Part shown: one piece after another, positions 11,916 to 13,470 of the stretch
How positions within the stretch are numbered: position 1 is the first letter of the stretch
How the letters are laid out: each line of letters begins with the position of its first letter
Source of the DNA: Actinoplanes sp. NBRC 103695
GTDB lineage: Bacteria > Actinomycetota > Actinomycetes > Mycobacteriales > Micromonosporaceae
Length of the DNA: 64,000 bases
Direction: 5' to 3'
NCBI RefSeq assembly: GCF_030269485.1
Contig: NZ_BSTL01000002.1
Span: 359,671-423,670, forward strand
Made by a program: the position numbers and the translations under genes
The notes under the pieces: model-generated
Database searches by the model: none
Told to the model about the DNA's origin: nothing
What the model saw: the letters and a program-made list of their open reading frames with translations, nothing else

Positions 11916-12046
11916 GGCTCCATTGTCCAAGGCGGTGGTTGCGGACGACGCCCCGGGGGTGTACTGCGTGCCCCACTTCATACCCGAGCGTTTTGTCCGT
12001 TTTCCGGGGCAGCGCGGCGACGGGGCGTATTGTTAGCGTTCTTTCT

Positions 12047-12820
12047 ATGCAGCGGGGGCACATCGCGGCGCTGGCCGCCGTACTGGTCATGGTGTCGGGG
12101 TGTGGGGTGACGGGTCGCTCGGCGGCTGAGCAGCAGCCGGTCGCCCAGGCGAGCCCCGAGCCGATCACGCCCATCGAGGTCGTGGAGACGCCCGCCGAGG
12201 AGCCGCCGCCGACCGAGGCGCCGTCCAAGAGGCCGGTGAAGAAGGCCAAGCCGACGCCGACCGAGGACCCGAACAACTTCACGCTGCCCGAGTGCGCCAC
12301 CCGCGAGGGCAAGCTGGTGTCCAAGAAGGCGGCCAAGGCGGCGCTGAGCACCGCGGCCGGCAGGGCGTACTGGAAGACGTCGGCGCCCAGGCTGAAGGTC
12401 CCCGCCGACCTGGTCAAGGCGATCGCCTGGCAGGAGAGCGGCTGGCAGTCGAACATCGTGAACTGCGACGGCGGCCGCGGCCTGATGCAGGTGATGCCCG
12501 GTACGGTCGACCAGATCAACCTCCGGTTCGGGCAGAGCTACGACGCCGCGGACTACAAACAGAACGCCCTGGCCGGCGCCAACTACCTGGCCTGGCTGAC
12601 CAAGGCGTTCGGCGACGACCACTTCAAGGGCAAGTACGACCTGAGCCCGGCGCGCTGCAAGACCCACGGCAGCATGTGCCTGCTCAACATGGTGATCTCC
12701 GGCTACAACGCCGGGCGGGACGGGGTGGACACGGCGTACGAGAGCGGCGACCTGCCCAATCCCGCGTACGTCGACTCGGTGCGTTCGCTGATGAAGTCCT
12801 GCTACTGCGACCGATACTGA
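12047..12820 (+). CDS. Lipoprotein lytic transglycosylase (SLT domain)
   Basis: 257 aa. The N-terminus is a lipoprotein signal peptide with lipobox VSGC (Cys about residue 19). A Pro/Glu/Lys-rich spacer runs from about 25 to 80. The C-terminal part is a goose-type/SLT lytic transglycosylase domain: the catalytic Glu lies in 'AIAWQESGWQSN' (about residue 130) and 'GRGLMQVMPGT' follows. It should cleave peptidoglycan between MurNAc and GlcNAc on the outer face of the membrane. The ATG at 12047 is chosen because the signal peptide starts there. The protein is close in type to actinobacterial enzymes of unknown specific role. Confidence 0.92.
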   Translation: MQRGHIAALAAVLVMVSGCGVTGRSAAEQQPVAQASPEPITPIEVVETPAEEPPPTEAPSKRPVKKAKPTPTEDPNNFTLPECATREGKLVSKKAAKAALSTAAGRAYWKTSAPRLKVPADLVKAIAWQESGWQSNIVNCDGGRGLMQVMPGTVDQINLRFGQSYDAADYKQNALAGANYLAWLTKAFGDDHFKGKYDLSPARCKTHGSMCLLNMVISGYNAGRDGVDTAYESGDLPNPAYVDSVRSLMKSCYCDRY

Positions 12821-12885
12821 CCTGGTCGCAGGCGGGGGAGAGCGGGCGGCTACACTAGTCGGTGGAACCCGAGATCCCTGCTGTT

Positions 12886-12915
12886 TTGACCCGCTTCTGG
12901 GCGCCGCTGTAAGGT
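12886..12915 (+). promoter_or_regulatory. Promoter of the L11 paralog gene
   Basis: TTGACC (12886-12891), 18 bp, TAAGGT (12910-12915) is a good housekeeping-type promoter. An inverted repeat CCCGAGA/TCTCGGG (12868-12874 and 12916-12922) flanks the -35/-10 region and could be an operator. The leader to the ATG is about 75 nt. Confidence 0.6.
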
Positions 12916-12996
12916 CTCGGGGTTGTTGTGCGTTCAGATGCTCCGCGTGGCTCCGACTTTCGGCCCGTGCAGCACACCAGAAGGAGCCTGAAAGTA

Positions 12997-13425
12997 ATGC
13001 CGCCCAAGAAGAAGACCCATGAGGTGACCCTCGCGCTTGAGGCGGGTAACGCCGCGATGGTCGACCTCGGTAAGATGCTCGGCCCGACCGGCGCCAACAT
13101 GCGGGCTGTCAAGGTGGAGTACGACGAGGCCACCTCGAAGAACCGGGGCGAGATCATCCCGGTCGTGGTGTCCGTCTTCGAGGACCGCTCTCACCAGCTG
13201 GTCTACAAGACCCCGCCGACCAGCTTCCTGATCCGCAAGGCTCTGGGCATCCAGTCGGGCGCTTCCAACCCGCTGACCCAGACCGTCGGCACGCTGAGCC
13301 AGGAGCAGGTGCGCGGCATCGCCGAGCGCAAGCTGCCCGACCTCAACGCCAACGACGTCGACGCCGCGATCAAGGTCGTCGCCGGCACCGCCCGTTCCAT
13401 GGGTGTGAAGGTCGCCGGACAGTAG
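12997..13425 (+). CDS. Ribosomal protein L11 paralog (divergent, stand-alone)
   Basis: 142 aa, full L11 length, with a strong AAGGAG ribosome binding site. The C-terminal rRNA-binding domain is well kept ('KTPPTSFLIRKALGI', 'GTARSMGVKV'). The N-terminal domain deviates: the usual PPVGPALG loop, whose prolines contact 23S rRNA and thiopeptide antibiotics, reads VDLGKMLG here. The gene stands alone with its own promoter and terminator instead of in a secE-nusG-rplK-rplA cluster, so a normal rplK very likely exists elsewhere. Possible roles: thiopeptide tolerance (like TclQ of thiocillin producers), a growth-phase-specific ribosome, or altered Rel/stringent control. The paralogy is inferred from divergence and location. 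Confidence 0.85.
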   Translation: MPPKKKTHEVTLALEAGNAAMVDLGKMLGPTGANMRAVKVEYDEATSKNRGEIIPVVVSVFEDRSHQLVYKTPPTSFLIRKALGIQSGASNPLTQTVGTLSQEQVRGIAERKLPDLNANDVDAAIKVVAGTARSMGVKVAGQ

Positions 13426-13432
13426 GTATTTC

Positions 13433-13470
13433 AAACAAGGCCCGCCTGAGTAATCAGGCGGGCCTTGTTT
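13433..13470 (+). terminator. Terminator after the L11 paralog
   Basis: A perfect stem ACAAGGCCCGCCTGA / TCAGGCGGGCCTTGT with loop GTAA, followed by TTTCG. This is one of the clearest intrinsic terminators of the window. Confidence 0.9.

Follow-up and report, generated by a model that had tools for sequence, protein, structure and literature searches.

A divergent, probably thiopeptide-insensitive L11 is the only L11 of Actinoplanes

In Actinoplanes, a core ribosomal protein has been replaced throughout the genus: the only L11 belongs to a divergent subfamily, and the canonical gene, rplK, is gone from its usual operon. The part that has been rebuilt – the proline loop of L11 – is the classic contact of thiopeptides, lies in the RelA-activating domain and is nearly invariant in bacteria, and a whole genus of antibiotic producers has a different version of the protein as its only L11. 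The replacement is documented by the sole copy, the deletion scar, the loop change, purifying selection and an unchanged rRNA; this housekeeping L11 probably makes Actinoplanes ribosomes less able to bind thiopeptides. Measured against known L11s, a divergent and, from its sequence, probably thiopeptide-insensitive form that serves a whole genus would be new, and the open-access literature gave no account of an L11 that had been lost or replaced in Actinoplanes or Pseudonocardiaceae.

The gene and its rebuilt N-terminal domain

The gene occupies positions 12997-13425 of the window (the whole stretch of DNA analysed, 64,000 nucleotides from Actinoplanes sp. NBRC 103695) and encodes, on the forward strand, a full-length L11 of 142 aa. 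Both L11 Pfam domains pass their cut-offs (PF03946 with 48.5 bits against 32.9, PF00298 with 93.7-95 bits against 21.4), and the L11 fold and the conserved rRNA-binding residues are both present, as judged from a predicted structure and an alignment. The match to TIGR01632, the NCBI L11 equivalog, is also full-length, but its 132.3 bits fall narrowly below the cut-off of 141.85; the protein is a divergent L11, outside that cut-off. The features of the locus, all on the forward strand, are as follows.

12866..12924, +: inverted repeat, AACCCGAGA(T)C at 12866-12876 and G(G)TCTCGGGGTT at 12913-12924; operator-like or a leader hairpin (genus alignment)
12885-12891 and ~12907-12912, +: promoter-like TTTGACC and (CTG)TAA, flanked by the inverted repeat (genus alignment)
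12981..12986, +: ribosome-binding site AAGGAG, invariant in the genus alignment
12997..13425, +: sole L11 (rplK) gene, divergent subfamily, 142 aa (profile searches of the genome)
13048..13092, +: codons 18-32 (NAAMVDLGKMLGPTG) in place of the proline loop QATPAPPVGPALGQHG; one residue shorter, four loop prolines absent (32 canonical L11s aligned with 68 divergent ones; sequence)
13207..13413, +: C-terminal rRNA-binding domain, invariant residues kept (PF00298 match; alignment)
13435..13468, +: terminator-like perfect 15-bp hairpin ACAAGGCCCGCCTGA-GTAA-TCAGGCGGGCCTTGT, 3' of the stop codon (sequence)

An earlier note on this DNA had credited the gene with its own promoter, operator-like inverted repeat and terminator. 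These elements can be seen, and the upstream layout – TTTGACC...TAGTAA inside the inverted repeat ACCCGAGAC...GTCTCGGGGT – is kept in most of the aligned Actinoplanes upstream regions (14-19 sequences); an automatic promoter and terminator scan scored neither the promoter-like element, nor the inverted repeat, nor the hairpin at 13435-13468. A ClpP-like serine protease gene adjoins the L11 gene (13627-14244, reverse strand) and a lytic transglycosylase gene lies upstream of it (11939-12820); these two, whose names we presume from reading the sequence, mark a conserved Actinoplanes L11 locus.

In an alignment of 32 canonical L11s with 68 members of the window gene's subfamily (E. coli numbering), the canonical P20-A-P-P-V-G-P26-A-L-G becomes M-V-(gap)-D-L-G-K-M-L-G in the window protein. 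The proline-rich N-terminal loop (P20/P22/P23/P26) is absent: MVDLGKMLG has one residue fewer than PAPPVGPALG, and all four prolines are gone. Compared with the 32 canonical L11s, the window protein has P20→M, P22 deleted, P23→D, V24→L, P26→K and H31→T and, further along, C39→K, N43→D and F69→L, while the invariant KTPP, DLN and G(T)ARSMG of the C-terminal domain are intact. The earlier note's description of a replaced proline loop beside a retained C-terminal domain is borne out, the change being larger than it stated.

Across the 68 members, the deletion of P22 and Lys at position 26 are found in 100%, position 20 is mostly Met or Val, and position 23 is Asp or Glu; H31→T, C/V39→K, N43→D, F69→L and A76→T are likewise fixed or nearly so. 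These switches fall mainly in the N-terminal domain and are the same in two families. The subfamily has a conserved alternative N-terminal motif, A-G-[ND]-A-x-x-x-[DE]-L-G-K-x-L-G-[PQ]-T-G ... K-x-x-Y-D. Since all Actinoplanes-type members have the identical loop fixed, the change is not a matter of chance. Among 14 Actinoplanes-group genes, dN/dS is 0.20 overall, 0.14 in the N-terminal part and 0.24 in the C-terminal part; in this genus, purifying selection acts more strongly on the altered N-terminal half than on the C-terminal one, and this speaks against drift.

AlphaFold models built from shallow alignments give the window protein the full L11 fold (TM 0.91 to ribosomal L11 by Foldseek) and a continuous helix at 21-31; in a model of canonical actinobacterial L11, likewise from a shallow alignment, an extended proline stretch precedes a helix at 26-31.

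The missing rplK and the spread of the subfamily

Searches with both L11 domains found one L11 gene in the whole 10.8-Mb genome, that at 12997-13425. In the same genome, tRNA-Trp, secE, nusG and rplA follow each other in the usual order on one contig, with rplK absent and ~60 bp between nusG and rplA. The earlier note had taken the gene for a paralog standing by itself that could be exchanged into ribosomes under stress, and had named the lack of any other rplK as a refutation; we looked for such a gene and there is none, and with rplK lost from its operon as well, both the paralog reading and the swap model are refuted for this genome.

An L11-free nusG-rplA junction of ~60-135 bp is found in this genome and in 30 relatives; in canonical genomes the gap measures ~550-685 bp and is occupied by rplK, and a canonical relative has the order nusG-rplK-rplA. 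What is left of the spacer (GTGGGAGGG..GCCC..CGCCA..ACCACAGGAGTAA) corresponds to the stretch between rplK and rplA in that relative, so rplK was cleanly removed and the rplA leader kept. A conserved spacer upstream of rplA, GTGGGAGGG..CCC..ACCAC, occurs in two families and persists after rplK loss (L004:8949-9008; L124-L153; L255-L280); it is possibly the L1 autoregulatory mRNA site, and Rfam gave no real match to an RNA leader in the nusG-rplA scar.

A single L11 is also the rule in the genus, taken here in the broad sense that includes Paractinoplanes, Couchioplanes and Pseudosporangium: all 68 genomes, 16 of them single-contig assemblies, have exactly one L11, 87-100% identical to the window protein. 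Spirilliplanes is in the same state, with a divergent sole L11 and rplK missing from the operon.

Beyond the genus, in a set of 261 Micromonosporaceae genomes, 17 outside Actinoplanes (including Planosporangium) carry canonical L11 together with a subfamily member of 57-73% identity, a second check confirming both copies, and most of the others have canonical L11 only. Among 150 Pseudonocardiaceae, 12 – including Allokutzneria, Actinoalloteichus, Sciscionella and Herbihabitans – have only a subfamily member (71-75% identity), and in every one of these rplK is missing between nusG and rplA (gap 59-189 bp); a further 32 hold both forms, the subfamily member at 57-64% identity. The paralog reading, which fails for the window's genome and for Actinoplanes, fits these 17 and 32 genomes. 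Eight further Pseudonocardiaceae (L215-L222) have a single in-situ rplK whose loop, ANPAS-VGQALGPHG, has P22, P23 and P26 changed or lost. No other subfamily member above 55% identity turned up in a wider sample of the phylum (n=396), and a search for plasmid-borne relatives found none, the best match (53%) lying on a chromosome-sized record.

In a 109-sequence tree, a long branch (SH-aLRT 100) parts the subfamily from canonical L11, on whose side stand the micrococcin-plasmid L11 and the in-situ variant, which groups with the canonical clade; given the loss in the subfamily and the in-situ loss in the canonical clade, the proline surface has been lost twice, independently. The sole copies of Actinoplanes form one group (SH-aLRT 96) and those of Pseudonocardiaceae another (94), and both are joined with Planosporangium (90). 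On 142 columns, AU tests do not reject a tree in which all sole copies form one clade, nor one in which Micromonosporaceae inherited the gene vertically; either direction, and transfer between families as well as vertical descent, would be compatible with these data. A core ribosomal protein has been replaced by an alternative form, and two-copy intermediates are still present in sister genera.

The thiopeptide site and competing explanations

Thiopeptides bind between A1067/A1095 of the 23S rRNA and the N-terminal domain of L11, on whose prolines their thiazole rings stack, and changes on the protein or the rRNA side lead to resistance (PMC5960728), which makes the earlier note's link between loop changes and thiopeptide resistance a reasonable one. 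The 23S region 1051-1108, including A1067 and A1095, is canonical in all matched Actinoplanes (8 of 24 other genomes of the genus gave no match, probably because their rRNA operons are missing from drafts), and an altered partner rRNA is thereby ruled out for the matched genomes.

We propose that the subfamily, whose N-terminal domain is rebuilt and which other Micromonosporaceae and Pseudonocardiaceae carry as an additional L11, took over as sole L11 in the ancestor of Actinoplanes, and that canonical rplK was deleted from nusG-rplK-rplA. As the only L11 in 68 genomes, the divergent protein is very likely incorporated into ribosomes, where its C-terminal domain should still hold it on the GTPase-associated centre of the 23S rRNA, which is unchanged. 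The cleft for thiopeptides should be without its proline stacking surface, since the extended PAPPV stretch is predicted to become a regular helix with Lys at position 26, and such a cleft would bind antibiotics of the thiostrepton/micrococcin type less well; the divergent L11 would then act as constitutive target protection by way of a replaced target protein. With the rRNA side unchanged and all four prolines gone, reduced thiopeptide binding is the most direct prediction and a likely one, and thiopeptides are plausible as the selective force.

The literature yielded no phenotype for any Actinoplanes. The vector in a study of A. teichomyceticus has, by the paper's description, thiostrepton resistance as its selection marker (PMC3897980), which suggests that this strain is thiostrepton-sensitive and counts indirectly against a thiopeptide-insensitive L11. 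The predicted intrinsic thiopeptide tolerance of Actinoplanes may be missed by current genome screens; Actinoplanes friuliensis went unflagged in a published resistance-indicator screen that includes rplK (PMC9290621).

Altered stringent control is the chief competing explanation, or may come on top of reduced thiopeptide binding. The rebuilt domain would have been selected for tuning of translation factors or the stringent response (EF-G/EF-Tu/RF/Rel, A/R-tRNA contacts), with any thiopeptide insensitivity as a by-product, which we regard as rather unlikely. RelA activation does need the L11 N-terminus, which contacts the A/R tRNA (PMC4974054), and Streptomyces relC (L11) knockouts lose ppGpp and actinorhodin production (PMC6784132). 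Nor has the domain simply decayed: K26, K39, D43 and L69 are fixed, and in Actinoplanes this half of the protein is better conserved than the other; the conservation of K26, K39 and D43 suggests that a function was gained and not just a drug site lost. The paralogs are, moreover, unlinked to thiopeptide clusters: the divergent L11 genes of two-copy genomes sit in varied neighbourhoods outside such clusters, with none within ~50 kb and the nearest TIGR03891 match ~50 kb off. Against tuning stand the loss of four separate prolines of the thiopeptide surface and a third lineage that changed P22, P23 and P26 in situ, independently and without the other switches; this points to the drug site.

The window's own contig is likewise free of any thiopeptide-type dehydratase (TIGR03891), in agreement with the earlier note, which had seen no thiopeptide genes nearby. 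Two TIGR03891 loci of thiopeptide/lantibiotic type lie on other contigs of the same genome (G000, C49:3549-6387 and C18:26322-29211), unlinked to the L11 gene.

More tentatively, it is possible that the subfamily represents a second, functionally distinct kind of bacterial L11, whose action at the GTPase-associated centre would differ in Rel activation, EF-G docking and release and which would have taken the place of the universal form for good in at least two lineages. If so, factor binding and the stringent response run without the near-universal proline loop.

Actinoplanes also offers a natural test of whether stringent control depends on the loop. The replacement predicts a changed sensitivity to antibiotics and, possibly, a changed signalling of starvation.

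It is highly improbable that the gene is an accessory paralog with its own promoter, swapped into ribosomes under stress, for neither its own genome nor the genus has a second L11 to swap with. In its favour, a relative of the gene does accompany canonical L11 in the 17 Micromonosporaceae and the 32 Pseudonocardiaceae. Directly 3' of the divergent L11 in 12 of the 44 two-copy loci examined (8 of 17 in Micromonosporaceae and 4 of 27 in Pseudonocardiaceae, small numbers; L106, L107, L109, L111, L113, L115, L116, L119, L233, L236, L244, L251) lies a gene for a small CGNR-type zinc-motif protein, one of which matches PF11706; this zf-CGNR-like protein is a possible regulator or partner of the divergent L11. 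The 12 sole-copy loci examined have no such gene downstream, which speaks against the accessory model, and the pattern fits an accessory, possibly regulated L11 form later made constitutive.

Neutral drift has an equally slim chance. L11-deficient mutants of several bacteria are viable, so a degenerate copy of a protein dispensable in some bacteria might have been kept by chance, and relC knockouts are indeed viable (PMC6784132). Against this stand the near-invariance of the N-terminal domain over the genus, the constraint on the C-terminal domain as well, the same fixed switches in two families and the absence of frameshifted or relaxed L11 copies from the 68 genomes. That canonical rplK hides in an assembly gap or was lost by misassembly has next to no probability: the window's genome is a draft of 180 contigs, but nusG and rplA are contiguous on one of them without rplK, the same junction recurs in 30 relatives, and the 16 single-contig genomes have the same single L11.

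Comparison with known systems

The window gene resembles canonical L11 (rplK/uL11) in length, fold, rRNA-binding domain and in being the sole L11 of its genome, and differs from it in its shorter, proline-free loop, its fixed N-terminal switches, its score below the TIGR01632 cut-off, its position outside the nusG-rplA operon and its separate clade, set off by a long branch.

TclQ/TclT and the micrococcin-plasmid L11 are, like the window protein, L11 homologues with an altered thiopeptide loop and a changed position 26. In the micrococcin-plasmid and TclQ type, the loop change is limited to P26 (PMC12724294): the micrococcin-plasmid loop, PAPPVGTVLG, keeps P20, P22 and P23, and among its loop prolines only P26 is changed (to Thr). 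The Pro26 substitution that marks the TclQ type is found in the window protein (P26→K), yet the latter is neither cluster-encoded nor accessory to a canonical L11, whereas TclQ-type genes lie inside thiopeptide clusters and coexist with one. Judged by their sequences, the two share the position-26 change only, and the parallel with TclQ drawn in the earlier note stands for that position but not for the remaining prolines.

Eukaryotic ribosomes are naturally insensitive to thiostrepton, which has been attributed to the sequence of uL11, and yeast ribosomes turn sensitive with bacterial L11 (PMC5960728); the eukaryotic loop differs, and in Actinoplanes both the L11 subfamily and the ribosome are bacterial. 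TsnR, the A1067 2'-O-methyltransferase of the thiostrepton producer, would protect the same site as the divergent L11, but it modifies the rRNA half, whereas Actinoplanes has kept the rRNA sequence and has an altered protein half. The exchangeable zinc/non-zinc ribosomal protein paralogs, finally, are divergent second copies, as the L11s of the two-copy relatives are (PMC3353972). The divergent L11 has no zinc motif, and two L11 forms in one genome are found in the 17 Micromonosporaceae and 32 Pseudonocardiaceae but not in Actinoplanes, where the alternative form is permanent.
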